Source: Candidatus Bathyarchaeota archaeon (GTDB lineage Archaea > Thermoproteota > Bathyarchaeia > TCS64). Taken from it: a stretch of DNA of 64,000 bases. The first letter of the stretch is position 1. Every line of letters starts with the position of its first letter. The stretch is from positions 64,117 to 128,116 of the forward strand of contig JAGTQU010000001.1 of NCBI GenBank assembly GCA_018396695.1, read 5' to 3'. Made by a program: the position numbers and the translations under genes. A model generated the notes under the pieces. That model did no database searches, was not told where the DNA came from, and saw nothing but the letters and a program-made list of their open reading frames with translations. Shown here in pieces: positions 54,989 through 64,000 of this stretch.

Positions 54989-55813
54989 ATGTTAAGGTTA
55001 GTGGCTGAGATGCCTTCTGAGCTACTTATCGAGCTTGTCGGAGAAAAAGAGGTTTCTCTACCAAGGTTTACAGGTTACATCTCTAGGGCTCTGTTTTTAC
55101 ACATGATGCGAGCTGTGGATCCAGGAGAGGCGGCTGAGCTTCACGAGTCTGATGTTATGAAGCCTTATAGTGTCACGCAGCTCATGTTTAAAGCTAGGCT
55201 GAGGTCTCCTTCAGGATATGTTCTAGATCCATCCTACCCTTGCAGGGTCGGTTTCAGATTCCTGTCGGATAAGCAGTTTCAAAAGTTTATGAGCTTCTTT
55301 TCGAAGAAGAATGCGGTTTTGATTTCGGAGGTTAGATTCAAGATAGCTTCGATGATCTTAAAGTCGATTGAATATGAAGAGCTTCTGAAGAGTGAACCTG
55401 TAAAGAATTTTAGACTAATCTTCAGAACTCCTACATATCTCTCAAGCATGGGTTCAAGATATGAGTCTCTCTTCCCCGAACCTTTGCAGATTTTTTCCAA
55501 CTTGATGAGGATCTGGGACTCGTTCTCCGATTCAAGGGTTTTCGGTGAGGAAGGTTTAGAGGCTTATAAGTATTGGATTAAGAATCATATGGGAGTGTCG
55601 GCATATGTGTTGAGGACTGGGCTAGCGGAGATGGGGAAGAAAAAGGCGATTGGCTTCACTGGCTGGGTTGAATACGAGATGGATGAACAGGAGGAGTGGA
55701 ATAAGGTTACCCTAGCTTTAGCTAAGTTTGCTGAATACAGCAACATAGGAGGAAACAGAACAGGAGGATTCGGAGAAGTAAGATTTTATTCGAGTTCAAT
55801 TGAAAAAAGATAG
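54989..55813 (+). CDS. cas6: Cas6 CRISPR RNA endoribonuclease
   Basis: A 274-residue RAMP protein that cuts pre-crRNA within repeats. It has two ferredoxin-like halves and the C-terminal glycine-rich loop YSNIGGNRTGGFGEVRF (about 250-266), the Cas6 hallmark. The GYISRALFLHMMR segment near residue 30 is compatible with the catalytic His region (H at about 35), not proven. It is the first gene of the effector block; its 3' end overlaps cas3 by 14 nt. Its composition is host-like, not as AT-rich as the following genes. Confidence 0.9.
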   Translation: MLRLVAEMPSELLIELVGEKEVSLPRFTGYISRALFLHMMRAVDPGEAAELHESDVMKPYSVTQLMFKARLRSPSGYVLDPSYPCRVGFRFLSDKQFQKFMSFFSKKNAVLISEVRFKIASMILKSIEYEELLKSEPVKNFRLIFRTPTYLSSMGSRYESLFPEPLQIFSNLMRIWDSFSDSRVFGEEGLEAYKYWIKNHMGVSAYVLRTGLAEMGKKKAIGFTGWVEYEMDEQEEWNKVTLALAKFAEYSNIGGNRTGGFGEVRFYSSSIEKR

Positions 55814-58031
55814 AACAATGAATATAAAAGAAATTTTTAAAGCTTTCAGTCAAGAGCCCTATAAACATCAGCTTGAAGCCTCTGAAATTCTTCTAAAAGG
55901 TAAGCCTGTAGTAATTCGAGCTCCGTGTGGCTCGGGAAAGACAGAGGCCTGCGTTTTTCCCTTTCTGCTAGGTCGAGGAGAATATTTACCTCGAAGATTG
56001 ATCTACTCATTGCCAACGAGATCACTTGTTGAAGATATAGCTAGTAGACTCGAAGATCGGCTCAAGAAATTAAATTTTAATGTAAGTTTATCACGTCAAC
56101 ATGGAGCAGACTCAAAAGATCCTTTTTTTAGAGAAAACATAATCATTACAACGATTGATCAAACAGTTGGTGCATATTATAGTACGCCTCTTAGTCTTCC
56201 TACGTATTTAGGAAATATTCCTTCTGGAGCAGCAGTATCTTCTCTTCTATGTTTTGACGAGGTTCATACATATGATCACGAACTGGGACTTAAAACGATG
56301 ATTATTCTTGTTGAGAGAGCTTTGAAACTTGAGCTTCCTTTTGTGGTGATGTCCGCAACACTTCCAGATTCTTTCCTTGAATGGTTTAAGGAAAACGGAG
56401 TCTCAATTCTCAGGGCAGACGATGAAAATATTCCTACTAGAAAAGAAAGAAATGTAATCTTAAAATGGCATGATCATCGACTTACGGTAGAAGATATAGT
56501 AGAGGCTTTTCAAAATTATAAAAAAGTTATCGTAGTTTGCAATACTGTTGTTAAGGCACAGGAAATTTACTCAGATTTAAATGATGATAAAGTACATCTA
56601 CTTCACTCGAGATTCACTGCTGAAGATCGAAAGAAAAACGAGAAGAATGTGATAGATGCCTTTAAAAACAATGACTCAGCTTATTTGATAACTACGCAAG
56701 TTTGCGAAGTCGGCCTAGATATATCTTGTGACTTAATGTTAACAGAGTTGGCTCCTCCTGACGCATTGATACAACGCATTGGTCGATGTGCACGTAAGGG
56801 TGGTAAAGGAAAAGTATACGTTTATGATGTAGAGTACGCGGCGCCATACTCAGATGGCTCAATAGAACAAAGTAGAAAATATGTTTCAAATGAATTAAAT
56901 GGAAAAACTGTCGATTGGAAACAAGAACTTGAATTTGTAAATCAACTCTTGGGGCCTGAATTCCAAGAGATAATGAAGGATGAGGGGGGTCGAAGAAAAA
57001 TACTTAGTAATCTTGGAGATGCGGCGTTCAAAGGAGATAAGCGCAAAATTGAGGAAAATGTCCGAGATATTTTATCGGTAAATATTACAATTCATGAAAA
57101 TCCATGTTCACTTGAAAAGGTTCTTTGGCTTATGCCATGGATCAATGTTGACGTTAGAGTTCTAAAAAAGGCGATGAAAGATTTCAACTTAAATATTTTT
57201 AGAGTAGATTACATATATGATGAAAGAAAGGGATCATCTTATGATTGTCATGAAATAAATGACCCTTATCATTTATATCCATTCGAAAATTATATTCTTT
57301 CTCCTATCAATGTTAGATATGACTCTAATAGAGGGCTTATATTCGGAGAAGAAGGTGAAAATCTGGAACCCCAAATAAGAAAAGAGAAAGATACACGAGG
57401 GGATGTAAAATATTTTAAAGAGACGTGGTTTGATCATGTTAGGAAATCTCTAAGCGCATTCGATAAGATAAAAAAAGAGGAATTACCCTTAAACACATTT
57501 TCAAATTTGTTGAAGTATGATTCAAAAAGCAGTGAGGGAATCTTAGCTCTATCAGTGGCATTACATGATTTAGGGAAATTAAATAAAATGTGGCAAAAAT
57601 CAGTAGGGATAGAAAATAATTCAGAAGTACCTCTAGCACATATTGAAGATATATATATTGGTCATAGACCCGGGCATGCTGTTGTTTCAGGATATGCGTC
57701 TTTACCTCTTTTTAAAAAATTGATTGGAAAAGAATTTGCATATAACGCAATAGCTTTAGCCATCAGCCATCATCATCATGCTAGAAGTGAGAATTTAGAG
57801 AGATATGAAATAGGATGGAAAGAACTCGTTAGGCGCATTTTAGACGATGTGGCCTCTAAATATGGCCTCGATATTAACTCCGAAGACATAATTTGGTCGC
57901 AAAGACCATCGATACTCCCATATCGTTTCCCGTCAGTTGAAAATACGAAATCGTACACGATTTATGCAATTGCTTCACGGCTAATTCGTCTATCCGATAG
58001 GGAATCATTCGGCATGGACAAAAAGCTTTAA
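55800..58031 (+). CDS. cas3: Cas3 with helicase first and HD nuclease last
   Basis: A 743-residue Cas3. The SF2 helicase occupies the first 400 residues or so: Walker A APCGSGKTEA (about 40-49), CFDEVHTYDHE (DEVH, about 152), MSATLPD (about 182) and QRIGRCARKG (motif VI, about 324-333). The HD nuclease follows: FDHVRKSL (about 545), ALHDLGK (about 586), HRPGHAVV (about 621) and SHHHHARS (about 656). This order is the reverse of common HD-helicase Cas3. It degrades target DNA after Cascade binding. Start TTG 55800 overlaps cas6; ATG 55818 is an alternative. Confidence 0.93.
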   Translation: MKKDRTMNIKEIFKAFSQEPYKHQLEASEILLKGKPVVIRAPCGSGKTEACVFPFLLGRGEYLPRRLIYSLPTRSLVEDIASRLEDRLKKLNFNVSLSRQHGADSKDPFFRENIIITTIDQTVGAYYSTPLSLPTYLGNIPSGAAVSSLLCFDEVHTYDHELGLKTMIILVERALKLELPFVVMSATLPDSFLEWFKENGVSILRADDENIPTRKERNVILKWHDHRLTVEDIVEAFQNYKKVIVVCNTVVKAQEIYSDLNDDKVHLLHSRFTAEDRKKNEKNVIDAFKNNDSAYLITTQVCEVGLDISCDLMLTELAPPDALIQRIGRCARKGGKGKVYVYDVEYAAPYSDGSIEQSRKYVSNELNGKTVDWKQELEFVNQLLGPEFQEIMKDEGGRRKILSNLGDAAFKGDKRKIEENVRDILSVNITIHENPCSLEKVLWLMPWINVDVRVLKKAMKDFNLNIFRVDYIYDERKGSSYDCHEINDPYHLYPFENYILSPINVRYDSNRGLIFGEEGENLEPQIRKEKDTRGDVKYFKETWFDHVRKSLSAFDKIKKEELPLNTFSNLLKYDSKSSEGILALSVALHDLGKLNKMWQKSVGIENNSEVPLAHIEDIYIGHRPGHAVVSGYASLPLFKKLIGKEFAYNAIALAISHHHHARSENLERYEIGWKELVRRILDDVASKYGLDINSEDIIWSQRPSILPYRFPSVENTKSYTIYAIASRLIRLSDRESFGMDKKL

Positions 58032-58066
58032 GCCTTTTCTAAAGGAATAATTAATGGTTAACAAGC

Positions 58067-59113
58067 TTGACCCAAAAACTTTTTCTGAATAAAACAGGGC
58101 TTGAGCTATTTGACATTTTTAGGGCCTTTGGCTTAGGTTTTGCGATAAGAGGAATCTCATATGAGGATATAGAGGTCGTTATAACTGATATAAATTATGC
58201 TTATATTTTGGATATCGAAGGTGAAATACTTAACGCTCCAGATCCCCAACTTTTTATAGAAGCTGAACCAGAATGGAAAAATGTTTTTAGCACATTTCGG
58301 GACAGGAAAGACGCAAAATCAAGACCTCCTAAAGAAGATGTAGAAAATATCATAAAAAATGAATTTGAAAACATAATATCCCTCCATAGAGATATTGCAT
58401 TTATACCTAATATTGGAAAAAATGTGAAAGAAGGGAAAACCTTATATCAATCGCTCGATATTTCAGGCGCCAAAGGTTTTAGAGAAGAGAAAAAAGGAAA
58501 TGTATACCATGAAGGTACTCAAGTAAAAGTTGATAAATATTCTTGGGCAATCGGATGTTTGGGAGCGGCGATAACTGGTACTTGGAGGGAGGGTAATGAT
58601 TTCAAAATCACTATCGTTCCAAATCCGTATAATATTTCAATTGGCTCCCATCGCCAAATTCTTGAAGAAATGGGGCAAGAAAAATTATGCAATATCTCGT
58701 TCTCAACAACACTAGCTCATTTCGCAGTAAGACTCGCTGAAAAAATAGCCCTAAGAAAATATTCCTATGACATGACCTATGACTCGGTTGTTTTCAACTT
58801 GGAGAAAAAAACTAGTCAACAAAATAAACCTGGGGGAGGAGGAAAGCTCGGTCTAGGATTTCTTAGTGCATTGATAGACGAGGACTTTGGAACAGAAGCA
58901 CTAAAAAAATTTGACCAAATATTTCGCTCGGGTTTTGTTAAAGGTGCAAAACAGAGTCTGGCTCTTGCGCTTACTGATTTCTTAATACATCCCACATTGG
59001 ATAATTTTCGTAGATACGAGGACTTAAATATTCGAGGTAATATAAATGAACATGTCCTTCTTTGGGACAGACGCGAATTGGAGGCAATAATGAAGCATGT
59101 CCAAATTGTATGA
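58067..59113 (+). CDS. Probable Cas8a-like large subunit
   Basis: A 348-residue protein between cas3 and the small subunit, where the effector's large subunit belongs. I recognise no strong motif; GTWREGNDFKITIVPNPYN and a glycine-rich loop (KPGGGGKLGLGF, about 255-266) are conspicuous. Its assignment as Cas8a rests on position, size and the type I-A companions. It could be a divergent Cas8a1 (Csx13/MTH1090-like) or Cas8a2 (Csa4). TTG 58067; its end overlaps the next gene by 17 nt. Confidence 0.65.
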   Translation: MTQKLFLNKTGLELFDIFRAFGLGFAIRGISYEDIEVVITDINYAYILDIEGEILNAPDPQLFIEAEPEWKNVFSTFRDRKDAKSRPPKEDVENIIKNEFENIISLHRDIAFIPNIGKNVKEGKTLYQSLDISGAKGFREEKKGNVYHEGTQVKVDKYSWAIGCLGAAITGTWREGNDFKITIVPNPYNISIGSHRQILEEMGQEKLCNISFSTTLAHFAVRLAEKIALRKYSYDMTYDSVVFNLEKKTSQQNKPGGGGKLGLGFLSALIDEDFGTEALKKFDQIFRSGFVKGAKQSLALALTDFLIHPTLDNFRRYEDLNIRGNINEHVLLWDRRELEAIMKHVQIV

Positions 59114-59444
59114 GCTGTTTTCCGACCCTTCTGTTGAGAGCTTTGGTCGAGCATTAAGATACGCCATTATGAAAAAAGAATTTGGAGGGTGCGAAGATTA
59201 TGCGTCGCTTATCGAGCTTGAATACGTAGAGACTGTAGAAGAATTTGTTGAATCCTTAAAAAAATTTTTGAGAAGATATGATGCGTGTTCGAGAAGATAT
59301 GAAAGAGAAAGAGGAAGAGCTTCTTTTAAGCCAAATGAGAATGATCTAATCAATTTAATAAGGCTAACAGAAACATACGGAGTTCGAAATGTAAGTTCTT
59401 CTCTAATTGCTCATGCTTTAGTAAAAGCATCAAAGGAGGAATAA
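59097..59444 (+). CDS. Probable Cascade small subunit (Csa5/Cas11-like)
   Basis: A 115-residue, predicted mostly helical protein with a basic middle (SRRYERERGRASFK). It lies between cas8 and cas7, overlapping cas8 by 17 nt and ending 2 nt before cas7. Those are the size and place of the Csa5/Cas11 small subunit that lines the crRNA-DNA groove. Sequence homology is not clear by eye. Confidence 0.6.
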   Translation: MSKLYELFSDPSVESFGRALRYAIMKKEFGGCEDYASLIELEYVETVEEFVESLKKFLRRYDACSRRYERERGRASFKPNENDLINLIRLTETYGVRNVSSSLIAHALVKASKEE

Positions 59445-59446
59445 AA

Positions 59447-60331
59447 ATGAATGAGCAAATTTATGAAATAGGTATAGCGGCCCGAATAAAAATGAATGCC
59501 CATTCTTTGAATAACGAGGGCACAACGGGAAACGTAACCGAACCACGCACCGTGGTGTTAGCTGATGGAAGAAAGACCGATGGAATAAGTGGAGAAATGT
59601 TAAAACATATACATGCGGCCTATCTTTTCCATTTGGCAAAAGAGGAAAAAGAGAACTCTCTTTGTGAGTCATGTAAATCATTTAACCCTATGAAAGCGGA
59701 TGGAAACTCAAAGCTCAAAGGAAAAAGCGTAGTCGATGCTTTAAATGAAGCTCTTTCATGTGAATTATGCGATATTCATGGATTTCTAGTTCAAGAACCA
59801 ACTTTAAGTAGGAAATCAACAGTAGAGTTTGGTTGGGCTCTCGCTTTACCTGAGCAATTCCATAGAGATATTCACGTGCACACGAGAGTAGCTCCTGGTG
59901 AAAAAACGAGAGAAAAAGGCGTTTCAGAACAAATGATCTACAATCGCCCCACCCGATCCGGCGTTTATGCATTTATTTCGGTATTTCAGCCTTGGCGTAT
60001 AGGTCTTAATGAGGTCAATTATACATATAAGATTAATGATCCAATAAGAAAAAAGAGATACGATCTCGCAATAGACTCCTATAAATCAATGTTTACCCGT
60101 ATTGAAGGGGCGATGACAACAACAAGGATGCCACACATAGAAGACATTGAAGGAGTAATGATTAAGACAGATGATGCTCAACCAGTTCCTCTGATAAGCC
60201 CTCTAAAAGAAGATTATATAAAAGAAATCGAAAAGATTTCTCAAAGTGTTCAGAAATTCACTTCATTATCGGAATTGCTCAAAGCACTTGACAACCTCAA
60301 ACAGACATCACCCTATAAGTTAGGGGCGTAG
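59447..60331 (+). CDS. cas7: Cas7 (Csa2/DevR) backbone subunit
   Basis: A 294-residue RAMP that forms the crRNA backbone of Cascade. IYEIGIAARIKMNAHSLNNEG (about 5-25) and the DevR/Csa2 segments FGWALALPEQ, FISVFQPWRIGL and TRIEGAMTTTRMPHIEDIEG are typical. Unusually, two CxxC pairs, SLCESC (about 71) and SCELCD (about 104), flank an insert and may bind zinc. ATG 59447 follows AAAGGAGGAATAAAA, the best ribosome-binding site in the locus. Confidence 0.9.
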   Translation: MNEQIYEIGIAARIKMNAHSLNNEGTTGNVTEPRTVVLADGRKTDGISGEMLKHIHAAYLFHLAKEEKENSLCESCKSFNPMKADGNSKLKGKSVVDALNEALSCELCDIHGFLVQEPTLSRKSTVEFGWALALPEQFHRDIHVHTRVAPGEKTREKGVSEQMIYNRPTRSGVYAFISVFQPWRIGLNEVNYTYKINDPIRKKRYDLAIDSYKSMFTRIEGAMTTTRMPHIEDIEGVMIKTDDAQPVPLISPLKEDYIKEIEKISQSVQKFTSLSELLKALDNLKQTSPYKLGA

Positions 60332-60337
60332 TAGGTC

Positions 60338-61009
60338 ATGCCCTGGATTGGAGCAGAGTATAATTTCGCAAGCACATTTTCATATAGACTCCCTGATTTT
60401 TCATCCAGCTATGCACTATCGGCCCCTATTCCAAGCCCCTCAACTATAAAACTTGCTCTTGTATCCGGGATTATTTCTAGAAAAGGAAACATTGAAAGAG
60501 GCAAGCAGCTATTCGAACAAATCCGAACAGTAAAAGTGACCACCGAGCTTCCAGATCGGATAGCAACCTTTAAATGTTTTATTAAACGCCTTAAAAAGAA
60601 AAGACAAGGAAAAGGATTTGAACCAACATTTGGAATAAGAGAATATATTATCTATAATGGTCCTCTTCGTATTTTTCTTAATGTATCCAACCAAGTTATG
60701 GATGATGTTAAAGATGCTCTAAAAGCTGTCTCATACCTAGGTACATCTGACTCTCTTTGCACATGCACTGAATTTAACATCAGAGAACCCTTATGGAACA
60801 AATGTCCCCAACTCTATGACTCAGAACATGGCAAAGAAGGAATACTTTTCATGTTAACAGAATTTACAAACGAAGTTGCCTTCGAAAATGTTAACCCATA
60901 TTCAGAGGTCAGAATGATCAAGGGGAAACATATCGTGACCAAGCCTTACCTATTTCCTATCCATATTATGACCAAAGAGAGCAACTATGTAATATATGAG
61001 ACTAACTAA
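60338..61009 (+). CDS. cas5: Cas5 (type I-A) subunit
   Basis: A 223-residue RAMP that caps the crRNA 5' handle. FSYRLPDFSSSYALSAPIPSPSTIKLALVSGI (about 15-46) is the Cas5 N-terminal region; the segment FGIREYIIYNGPLRIFL and the internal glycine residues fit the fold. It is the last gene of the plus-strand effector block and ends 19 nt from the convergent cas4. Confidence 0.85.
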   Translation: MPWIGAEYNFASTFSYRLPDFSSSYALSAPIPSPSTIKLALVSGIISRKGNIERGKQLFEQIRTVKVTTELPDRIATFKCFIKRLKKKRQGKGFEPTFGIREYIIYNGPLRIFLNVSNQVMDDVKDALKAVSYLGTSDSLCTCTEFNIREPLWNKCPQLYDSEHGKEGILFMLTEFTNEVAFENVNPYSEVRMIKGKHIVTKPYLFPIHIMTKESNYVIYETN

Positions 61010-61028
61010 GAACATATATTTTTAGATT

Positions 61029-61640
61029 TTAACCGATGCAGTATTTCTTTACTTCGCAGTATCCGCATTTCTCATGGGAAACAGCAGGCGGGGTAGCCTC
61101 CCTGGCTATCATGCTCCGTATCCTCTCGATATCTCTAAGTACCCCTTGCTTATCCTCGTAAGAAACCTCCAAAACTCTGGTCTCCATCTGTTTAGAGAAA
61201 TATATCACGCCTCGCGTGACTTTCCTCCCGTACCTCTGCTCTAGGAGAAGTGCATAGGCGTACAGTTGTTTCAGATACTGCCTCTGAATTAGTACCTCAT
61301 CCGTATATTTCGTATCAACAGGGATCAGCTCCCCGTTCTTTAACCTCAAAGCGACATCTAGCTTACCCCTCAACCCAATCTCTCGGGCTTCTAGTTGAAG
61401 ATCCTGTATTACTTCCTCAACTTCCTCTATTGGAAACCCATAAATACTTTTCCTCTCCAGCATCCTTCTCTTTTCTTTCTCATGAACCTCTTCTCCATAC
61501 TCCATCTTCCTCCTTATAGAGGCTGGGACTCCCATAACGCGAAGAAAATAGACCTTCCTCGGACAATAATAGTATTGTACGATGTCGAATACTGTAACTT
61601 CACCATCTAAGATAGAACCCTTCATAATTTCTAAGTTCAC
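61029..61640 (-). CDS. cas4: Cas4 exonuclease for spacer processing
   Basis: A 203-residue PD-(D/E)XK nuclease with a [4Fe-4S] cluster. The first Cys is in YYYCPRKVYFL (about 26), and the other three are in KCGYCEVKKYC (about 192-202). The nuclease core includes LRGKLDVALRL and IPVDTKY. It trims prespacers and selects PAM with Cas1-Cas2. The GTG start at 61640 overlaps cas1 by 41 nt; ATG 61625 is also possible. Confidence 0.93.
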   Translation of the reverse strand: MNLEIMKGSILDGEVTVFDIVQYYYCPRKVYFLRVMGVPASIRRKMEYGEEVHEKEKRRMLERKSIYGFPIEEVEEVIQDLQLEAREIGLRGKLDVALRLKNGELIPVDTKYTDEVLIQRQYLKQLYAYALLLEQRYGRKVTRGVIYFSKQMETRVLEVSYEDKQGVLRDIERIRSMIAREATPPAVSHEKCGYCEVKKYCIG

Positions 61641-62634
61641 CTCTCAAAAAGCTAGCTACGTCCCTCGCCTGAATTAGAATCATGTCTGTCCATCTTCTTT
61701 GTTCATCTTTATACCTTACATATCTCTCGAAACGCTCCAAAACTGCTTTCAGAAGTAGTTTACGTGTTTGGTCTCCCATCTTACAGATCCCTTCTTCAAT
61801 TGAAAAGTCAGAAATTTTAATTTCGCCTTTAGCCACTAGCCCTATAACCGTCTTATCTATAAGCTGCTGCCTGAACTCTTCCATCAGATCAAGAACCATA
61901 CTCGGCCTGCCAGGGCGATCGACATGTAGAAAACCTCCATAAGGATCAAGCCCAGCATAGTGAACGCCACGCCAAACTTCTCCTTCGAGAAGTGCGTAAC
62001 CATAATTTAAAAGAGCGTTCACAGGATCTCCAGCGTAACGCCCTGACCTGCAGTTAAAATTAAATTCCTCTGGGATTATTTCATTTATTGCTTCCCAGTA
62101 GTATGTAGACGAGAATCCTTCCAATCCCATGAGTAAATTCCTTATCTGATCGATAGGCTTGACTTCAATAGACTCTACCTTCTCAATCTGATTCGATATC
62201 GCTTCTCTCTTCTCGATCAGTTTGTCGGCGACTTCAGGGGAAGTATCCCTCCTACTTTTCGCAAGAGTGCCTAAAGTCGCATACTGGTTTCTCATCTTAG
62301 CGACAATAAACTGTTTTGCAAGGAATCCGCTCCTTTCTTCCCTATACGCGTAATATTGCTCTCTTCGAGTTTGAACCGTCCTCAAATCCCTAGAAGCAAG
62401 TCGGGCCGTAACCTCACCTTTCCAATTAATAATTATTAAATCAACACCACAAGAGCCTAAAAGCTCCATGGCATCAAAACTGATGCTTCCACTACCTGAA
62501 ATAACGACTTGACGCAGATCCTCCACTTTTGTTTGATGAAGCGTCTTCCCTTTTTCTCTTACGACGATTCTTTCACCGTGTTTCCCTACAAACTTCCCAA
62601 AACCATCAACGACGAGTCGTTTCATCAGAGTCAC
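61600..62634 (-). CDS. cas1: Cas1 integrase
   Basis: A 344-residue spacer integrase. The catalytic residues are in place: Glu in LMGLEGFSSTYYWEAI (about 180), His in GGFLHVDRPGRPSM (about 247) and LDLMEEFR (about 261). The N-terminal beta domain MKRLVVDGFGKFVGKHG and the KPIDQIRNLL region are normal. GTG 62634 or ATG 62625 (MKRLVV) could be the start; the latter gives the canonical N-terminus. Confidence 0.96.
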   Translation of the reverse strand: MTLMKRLVVDGFGKFVGKHGERIVVREKGKTLHQTKVEDLRQVVISGSGSISFDAMELLGSCGVDLIIINWKGEVTARLASRDLRTVQTRREQYYAYREERSGFLAKQFIVAKMRNQYATLGTLAKSRRDTSPEVADKLIEKREAISNQIEKVESIEVKPIDQIRNLLMGLEGFSSTYYWEAINEIIPEEFNFNCRSGRYAGDPVNALLNYGYALLEGEVWRGVHYAGLDPYGGFLHVDRPGRPSMVLDLMEEFRQQLIDKTVIGLVAKGEIKISDFSIEEGICKMGDQTRKLLLKAVLERFERYVRYKDEQRRWTDMILIQARDVASFLRGELRNYEGFYLRW

Positions 62635-62646
62635 AGCCCAATATAA

Positions 62647-63549
62647 CTATTGATTCAAATTTTCCTCAACTCTACATTCCAAACGATACATACAATCTTC
62701 AGAACATATATTAGGAAATCCAGGGTCTAGCTTCTGTGAAACGATCTTTAGCTTTTCGTCTCTCTCCTCAACCCACCAGCTGCGGAGATCATCATTTATA
62801 AAGAAAAGATCTTTATCAATTATCAAATTGTCATCTTTAAATCTGATATAGACAGTACACCCGACATCCACAGGAACTTCATAAACGCTTTCGATGACGA
62901 GTGAATATCCTGTTGGGTATAACCTATACCAATCAAGACTCTCATCGCTTACTTTAATGTCAAAGACTATATCCCTTAAATAGTCAAAACAATCGATCTT
63001 CAATAGCCCAGATAATCCTAGAAGTTCTCCAGTAATTCGATGCTCAATCAGAAAAGGTAACGCAGTTGCAATTATGTCTCGTTTCGATGCATAAGGCTGT
63101 CTACTTGATAAATCTCTTAATCTACTTTCACAATATGCCCATGTAAGCTGCCAAACATTTCTTGAACGTTCCTTGATTATCGGATCAATATTCACAACTC
63201 CTTTAGAAGTAATAACACTAGAATACCATGATTCAAAGCTCGTGAATTGTCCTTCTATGAAGGTATTAAAAGCAGTTCTTACTGTTTCATGTATTGCCGA
63301 TCCTTGGATCACTTTTTTTGAAGGAACTCCCTTAGCACCTTTAACGATATTAACAAAAACATCCCTTCTCGTTGGGCAATATTGGGAACAGACAGAATAC
63401 ATAGGTATCTTAGTATCGTCATAATAAGGCTTCAATGGAGATTTATACCAATTCCAACCTCTTAGTTCTTCAGAAACACCAACTTTCCTAGCTTTCGGCA
63501 GAATTTGATTGAGAAGCTTTTTCTGATCGATATCGGACAAGAAAAACAA
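62647..63549 (-). CDS. csa1: Csa1, type I-A Cas4-family nuclease
   Basis: A 300-residue Csa1 protein, a Cas4-like nuclease specific to type I-A adaptation modules. RGWNWYKSPLKPYYDD (about 29-44), CSQYCPTRRDVFVNIVKG (about 54-71) and GSAIHETVRTAF (about 83-94) are characteristic. The C-terminal cluster cysteines are CSEDCMYRLEC (about 283-293). TTG 63549 has GAGGAGATC about 4 nt upstream. It is visibly more AT-rich than cas1 (one 60-nt line counts 33 percent GC). Confidence 0.92.
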   Translation of the reverse strand: MFFLSDIDQKKLLNQILPKARKVGVSEELRGWNWYKSPLKPYYDDTKIPMYSVCSQYCPTRRDVFVNIVKGAKGVPSKKVIQGSAIHETVRTAFNTFIEGQFTSFESWYSSVITSKGVVNIDPIIKERSRNVWQLTWAYCESRLRDLSSRQPYASKRDIIATALPFLIEHRITGELLGLSGLLKIDCFDYLRDIVFDIKVSDESLDWYRLYPTGYSLVIESVYEVPVDVGCTVYIRFKDDNLIIDKDLFFINDDLRSWWVEERDEKLKIVSQKLDPGFPNICSEDCMYRLECRVEENLNQ

Positions 63550-63559
63550 ATTGATCTCC

Positions 63560-63844
63560 TCAATTTACTATCTTTACTTCATCTTCATTTATTTCTCTCT
63601 TATTCTCTGAGATAATATTACATAATCTTATACACTTATCACAAATAGGTATGATATAGATGCTGTCTCTATCACTACTCAAATATTTTTCAACCTCCTT
63701 CGACAGAACAAACCGATCATGAGGATTGATTTCCCCTAGGAATCCGCTATATTGGATGTGATTCAAACCATAATCTAATAAATACTCCATAAGGTCATTC
63801 CGTTTTTTGTCATTAGAAATATCGTAGATAACTAGAGTTTTCAT
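63560..63844 (-). CDS. cas2: Cas2
   Basis: A 94-residue ferredoxin-like protein that forms the integration complex core with Cas1. The N-terminal VIYDISNDKKRNDLMEYLLDYGL contains the conserved Asp of the Cas2 family. ATG 63844 has no strong ribosome-binding site. It is the first gene of the adaptation operon (cas2-csa1-cas1-cas4), and a dyad operator lies 69 nt upstream. Confidence 0.93.
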   Translation of the reverse strand: MKTLVIYDISNDKKRNDLMEYLLDYGLNHIQYSGFLGEINPHDRFVLSKEVEKYLSSDRDSIYIIPICDKCIRLCNIISENKREINEDEVKIVN

Positions 63845-63912: not shown

Positions 63913-63955
63913 GTGAAGATCTTTATATACCCCTTCCCGAAAAACAGATCTTCAC
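63913..63955. promoter_or_regulatory. Perfect 10-bp dyad enclosing a TATA box upstream of cas2
   Basis: GTGAAGATCT (63913-63922) and AGATCTTCAC (63946-63955) are perfect inverted copies separated by 23 nt. The spacer contains TTTATATAC (63922-63930), readable as a TATA box on either strand (GTATATAAA on minus). Reading minus, it could start transcription about 55 nt before cas2; reading plus, it could serve a CRISPR leader beyond the edge. A repressor such as a Csa3-type protein could bind here, but no csa3 gene is in the window. Confidence 0.6.
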
Positions 63956-64000
63956 AAGTAGTCATAGATATAAGCATAAAGGAATAATTATTTATAGCCA

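Follow-up and report, generated by a model that had tools for sequence, protein, structure and literature searches.

An inverted repeat enclosing a TATA box beside cas2 in a Bathyarchaeota genome is very probably an element of a type I-A CRISPR leader

What does a perfect inverted repeat wrapped around a TATA box do at the outer edge of an archaeal CRISPR-Cas locus? The window analysed here is the whole 64,000-nucleotide stretch G000:C87:64117-128116 of a Candidatus Bathyarchaeota archaeon genome, and close to its right end it carries the dyad GTGAAGATCT-N23-AGATCTTCAC at 63913-63955, with perfect 10-bp arms and a 23-nt spacer containing TTATATAC, exactly as a first-pass annotation had described it. 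The left arm (GTGAAGATCT, 63913-63922, plus strand) stands directly upstream of a TATA box (TTTATATA, 63922-63929, plus strand) whose first T, placed at 63922 or 63923 depending on the alignment, precedes the axis by about 12 bp, and the right arm (AGATCTTCAC) follows at 63946-63955 on the same strand. Given the archaeal TATA-to-start distance in PMC4333418, transcription is predicted to start near 63952, about 26 bp past the TATA centre and inside the right arm. The first-pass annotation had proposed that a dimeric repressor, perhaps of the Csa3 type, could block TBP here and control spacer acquisition or, alternatively, the leader of a CRISPR array beginning just past the window.

The dyad region does adjoin cas2 (63560-63844, minus strand; PF09827, 9.5e-19), and a complete type I-A locus, csa1 included, lies to its left. 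Besides cas2, the minus strand holds csa1 (62647-63549; PF06023, 4e-76), cas1 (61600-62634; PF01867) and cas4 (61029-61640; PF01930), and the plus strand holds the interference genes cas6, cas3, cas8a, cas11a, cas7 and cas5 (54989-61009; Pfam, NCBIfam and PADLOC matches). An array leader would be expected in the strip from cas2 to the contig end. Arrays are common break points in assemblies, and this contig ends 24 bases past the window, at C87:128140, with the final bases ...TTTTATCCCGTTTC. Rightward extension, which the first-pass annotation had suggested as a way to look for repeats and csa3, reached the contig end, a repeat-like GTTTC (64020-64024) 64 bp past the dyad; no Csa3 over cut-off was found in the genome. 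The putative leader between dyad and array covers 63956-64000 and runs on to 64019 beyond the window (plus strand), followed by the GTTTC at which the contig ends and matching the 64-65 bp seen in relatives; taking GTTTC as the repeat start, the dyad axis falls at -86 and the TATA start at -98.

Taken alone, the dyad is at chance level for 64 kb, with three independent perfect 10-bp inverted repeats (gap 3-40 nt) in the window against a dinucleotide-shuffled mean of 3.2. The full dyad frame has one match only in the window (0 expected), and the dyad matters because the same 43-bp frame recurs at a type III locus and in the leaders of four relatives. Searching the whole genome for the frame with up to three mismatches revealed C87 itself, a copy at C30:70-112 (one mismatch) and a site on C26 (two mismatches), the last of which lies inside coding sequence with no array and was set aside as chance. 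The C30 copy keeps the 23-nt spacing and TATA position of C87 and sits near a contig end beside a type III cas operon encoding Cas10 together with Csm3-like and Csx10-like proteins. The first 8 kb of C30 showed neither cas1 nor cas2, and the genome has just two cas2 genes, one on C83 and one on C87. Read towards their contig ends, C30 gives CGTGAAGATCTTTAAATAC...TTGATCTTCACA and, after 65 bp, a terminal GTTT, and C87 gives CGTGAAGATCTTTATATAC...CAGATCTTCACA and, after 64 bp, GTTTC. The arms plus TATA are identical at 26 of 28 positions, whereas elsewhere the two leaders are near random (remaining spacer 4/15, downstream 23/64, upstream 7/30).

Two other contigs of this genome bear on its CRISPR content. 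C53 carries an array end with a 37-nt repeat starting GTTTC and is joined to neither C87 nor C30; this array may plausibly belong to their leaders, but its repeat matches the clade's repeats (26-28 of 37 positions identical) no better than it matches an unrelated 37-nt repeat. C83 (L041) holds a further CRISPR-Cas system (Cas6b, cas1, cas2, cas4, a TM1802-type large subunit, Cas7, Cas5 and Cas3) with its own repeat and with its leader off the contig. The C30 type III operon (L040:232-4586, minus strand) has no adaptation genes nearby and leader arms the same as those of the type I-A leader, which suggests that it uses the I-A adaptation module in trans.

Relatives with assembled arrays gave the frame its context. 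In the form GTGAA-N33-TTCAC, it is present in six distinct leaders (C87 and C30 of the window genome, G054, L082, G259 and G302), in each of which 64-65 bp separate it from the first repeat or the repeat-like contig end. The leader of Candidatus Hecatella orcuttiae JdFR-11 (G054, Bathyarchaeia) carries GTGAAC-N31-GTTCAC with a TATA box at the same offset, 65 bp before the first of at least 60 repeats. In Nitrososphaeria archaeon QQ_bin.110111 (L082) the frame precedes each of two arrays that face opposite ways, in both cases 64 bp from the first repeat, and the two leaders are near-identical copies. The G259 (GTGAAGATCT...GATCTTCAC, 65 bp to the repeat) and G302 (GTGAAGTTC...AACTTCAC, 64 bp) leaders come from another host family (f30) outside the window's class. 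The left arm GTGAAGATCT is repeated at C30 and G259 and is shortened in G054, L082 and G302. An exact scan with the consensus frame across one genome per GTDB species returned five records, of which the two archaeal ones are both leaders and the three bacterial ones had no array in the sequence examined; across 257 genomes of the class, all three exact matches are leaders of these loci. Bacterial and viral pattern matches (L079-L081, L280), which show no array, were taken as chance.

The dyad faces the array in every relative, with cas2 behind it or not: the leader follows cas4 in G054 and in one L082 leader, and a type III gene at C30. This recurrence before arrays, together with the GTTTC contig end, makes the window dyad, very probably, a CRISPR leader element that points away from cas2 rather than a cas2 operator. 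The operator of cas2 or other adaptation genes envisaged by the first-pass annotation finds no support, since the dyad follows arrays, not cas2, and was not found at the cas-gene promoters searched; its leader alternative is right as far as the element's place in an array leader goes. Conservation in relatives that keep cas2, on which the annotation had let its idea depend, is found in the close Cas1 clade. Separately from its leader dyad, G054 has a perfect palindrome, TGGTGATCT-C-AGATCACCA (L019:1461-1479), just upstream of cas2, which is a possible cas2 operator.

To place these leaders among others, we collected the neighbourhoods of Csa1 (PF06023) in 397 genomes of the phylum, detected arrays by script and oriented them by the 3' end of the repeat; chimaeras were built by joining left and right halves taken from different leaders. 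Counting as strong those dyads that scored at least 8 with an axis 82-92 bp before the repeat, an axis window set after about nine leaders in the sample had been seen, we found them in 15 of 86 non-redundant leaders (leaders below 60% identity can still be related) versus 0 of 69 trailers, 0.8% of dinucleotide shuffles and 1.3% of chimaeras. Most of the sampled Csa1-associated leaders are without a strong dyad. A chance inverted repeat, which the roughly three perfect 10-bp dyads per shuffled window would readily supply, is refuted by these comparisons and by the dyad's return, equally far from the repeat, in the second leader of the genome and in relatives, and we leave it next to no probability.

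Native leaders exceed chimaeras more than 10-fold at score 8, so the arms change together between lineages, their letters differing yet remaining complementary (GTGAAGATCT, TTTCGATTATC, TTCGCTGC, CTTCGTG, GCTACCC, CCGCCTGC). Among the 29 dyads scoring at least 7, the axis lies at -85 to -89 in 25 and at -76 to -79, about one helical turn closer to the repeat, in the other four; a TATA box is enclosed in 18 of the 29 and starts 12 bp before the axis in 17 of those 18. The window dyad fits this leader class in its complementary arms, its axis within -85 to -89 and its TATA start 12 bp before the axis. In two leaders, L213 and L172, the axis stays at -87/-88, no TATA box is recognisable inside the dyad, and a TATA-like sequence lies near -50. 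Sulfolobales-type leaders (L178, L182, L188 and L192, about -75 to -124) have a CATGCGA(C/A)C ... G(G/T)TCGCATG dyad centred near -100, likewise with no TATA box inside, and a further TTGCG/ATGCG copy near -200. From these TATA-less dyads, position relative to the repeat seems the more conserved property. The cas promoters in the loci searched had no dyads, which were confined to leaders, and the pattern of a second arm class, B (CGATTA), was not found in viral contigs.

Two further readings carry little weight. The arms might be an extended core promoter, that is, favourable BRE and start-site sequence around the TATA box with incidental complementarity, and they do occupy the expected BRE place on the left and the predicted start site on the right; the joint change of the arms between lineages, with the excess over chimaeras, and arm letters that vary far beyond any BRE consensus make this distinctly improbable. 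Still more improbable is a hairpin, attenuator or terminator at the RNA level. A transcript from upstream that ran across both arms could let them pair, but a leader transcript beginning at the predicted start, within the right arm, would not include the left arm, the 23-33 nt loops would be large, and the dyad region has no Rfam match.

Which protein, then, might read the arms? In the Cas1 tree, arm class A (GTGAA) forms one clade with SH-aLRT 100 that spans host families f1, f7 and f30 plus L082, and class B needs two changes. The window Cas1, whose clade follows the leader arm type, shares 57-60% identity with other A-arm Cas1 proteins and 36-39% with B-arm ones. The gene order of the window, cas2-csa1-cas1-cas4, is also that of A-arm loci (L055:12679-15454, L082:1262-4041), and several other type I-A loci of the class have csa1-cas1-cas2, then cas4.

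Regulators are distributed differently. No Csa3 (TIGR01884) passed the curated cut-off in the window genome, whose assembly is 96% complete; the genome does encode an HTH-CARF protein (CARF_m5) at the C30 locus. Among the A-arm loci, L082 has an HTH-CARF protein, G054 and G302 have Csa3, and G259 has no strong match to either within about 60 kb; among B-arm genomes, G051 has HTH-CARF, and G172, G148 and G132 have no full-length HTH-CARF. Arm type thus follows the Cas1 clade across hosts and not Csa3 or HTH-CARF. The HTH-CARF family (N-terminal HTH, C-terminal CARF_m5-like domain) has roughly 14 long homologues in 257 genomes of the class, and its members lie beside the type III operon at C30 (L040:4986-5696, plus strand) and beside the array in L082 (5978-6694, minus strand).

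This distribution weighs on the main competitor, an operator for array transcription, in which a dimeric winged-helix regulator (Csa3, HTH-CARF or another) would bind the arms and repress or gate the pre-crRNA promoter, covering the BRE on one side and the predicted start on the other and perhaps answering cyclic oligoadenylate. Consistent with it, the arms bracket the TATA box at a fixed 12-bp offset, CARF-HTH proteins are at or near many dyad loci (Csa3 at L055, L062, L172, L199, L210, L213 and L228; HTH-CARF at C30, L082, L113, L115, L119 and L121), and Csa3a binds type I-A leaders in Sulfolobales (PMC9456107, PMC8699464). Against it, the same A arms occur with HTH-CARF, with Csa3 or with neither strongly, B arms occur in genomes without full-length HTH-CARF (e.g., G172, G148), no dyad was found at the cas promoters searched, unlike the Csa3a palindrome, a fixed distance to the repeat would be unneeded, and the dyads of L213 and L172 persist with no TATA box recognisable between their arms. 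We regard such an operator as possible but doubtful. Csa3 in particular, the regulator type named by the first-pass annotation, finds no backing here: none is over cut-off in the genome, the dyad differs from the Csa3a palindrome of the literature, and the arms sort with neither Csa3 nor HTH-CARF. A dimeric reader of some kind is likely, and repression of transcription through the dyad is possible.

The reading we favour, to which we give about an even chance, is that the dyad is a docking or orientation site for the adaptation machinery that also brackets a promoter. As a conserved anchor element of type I-A CRISPR leaders, it would be bound at both arms by a two-fold symmetric protein or assembly with lineage-specific reading. 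Its fixed distance to the first repeat, with the axis at about -86 or, in some lineages, roughly a helical turn nearer, suggests that it docks or orients Cas1-Cas2 with Csa1/Cas4, or a co-inherited factor, and thereby directs new spacers to the leader-repeat junction. Published work on adaptation in Sulfolobus fits this reading (PMC9456107, PMC5815122, PMC4390879). With a TATA box between the arms in the window lineage, a protein bound to them would also compete with the pre-crRNA promoter or position it, and the exact 12-bp TATA-to-axis lock likewise speaks for some part in transcription. Counting against docking, the window's assembly lacks the array itself and strong dyads are missing from most sampled leaders. 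Co-inheritance of leader, repeat and cas1 means that Cas1 tracking may reflect linkage rather than recognition, and the choice between docking site and operator therefore rests on circumstantial evidence. A more specific version, which we consider a long shot, has TBP (with TFB) bend the leader at the TATA box so that the arms meet and are read as one symmetric site by the Cas1-Cas2 integrase complex, which is thereby placed on the first repeat; the dyad-framed TATA box would be an archaeal counterpart of bacterial IHF sites. Transcription of the array and acquisition of spacers would in that case be rivals for one bent stretch of DNA.

Neither Csa3a palindromes nor inverted repeats in leaders are new as kinds of element. 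The closest is the Csa3a leader-distal motif, or CAPPa, of Sulfolobales type I-A systems, likewise a symmetric element in I-A leaders roughly 100 bp before the repeat (PMC9456107, PMC8699464, PMC4333418), and adaptation in S. islandicus I-A falls when it is mutated (PMC9456107). CAPPa measures 18 bp, a compact TCCCN8GGGA palindrome placed 12 bp upstream of BRE/TATA at acquisition genes (PMC9456107, PMC8699464, PMC4333418), whereas the dyads here span 43-51 bp, enclose the TATA box in the window lineage, have other arm sequences and were found at leaders only; TCCCN8GGGA is absent from the window dyad sequence. CAPPa is also found at acquisition-gene promoters (PMC8699464), and the window frame matches two leaders plus one coding sequence genome-wide. 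Bacterial type I-F leaders, as described in PMC12259127, have inverted-repeat motifs contacted by Cas2 during integration, by Cas1-2/3 with IHF bending, a likeness of motif kind (inverted repeat linked to the integrase) rather than a demonstrated relation of sequence; unlike type I-F, no IHF-like bender has been identified for these archaea.

Sulfolobales CCN-type I-A leaders have conserved motifs, and Cas1, repeats and leaders co-evolve there, according to the available text of PMC4390879. The CATGCGACC...GGTCGCATG dyads near -100 probably fall among those motifs; that text, where it treats CCN-type leaders, describes no symmetry, TATA enclosure or fixed frame outside Sulfolobales. It also reports that a locus E leader lacking 25 bp upstream of -46 inserts spacers at internal repeats. 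In S. solfataricus, integration in vitro requires no less than 400 bp of leader (PMC5815122), so that the dyad alone would fall short there. The accessible literature showed no frame that encloses a TATA box between complementary, lineage-specific arms at a fixed distance; other leader-motif surveys may list parts of such a frame.

Integration in S. solfataricus requires unidentified host factors (PMC5815122). An element that keeps its geometry while its letters change with the Cas1 clade offers natural arm-swap and spacing variants for asking how archaeal type I-A systems find the leader-repeat junction, and also provides a marker for leaders and array orientation in fragmented archaeal assemblies.
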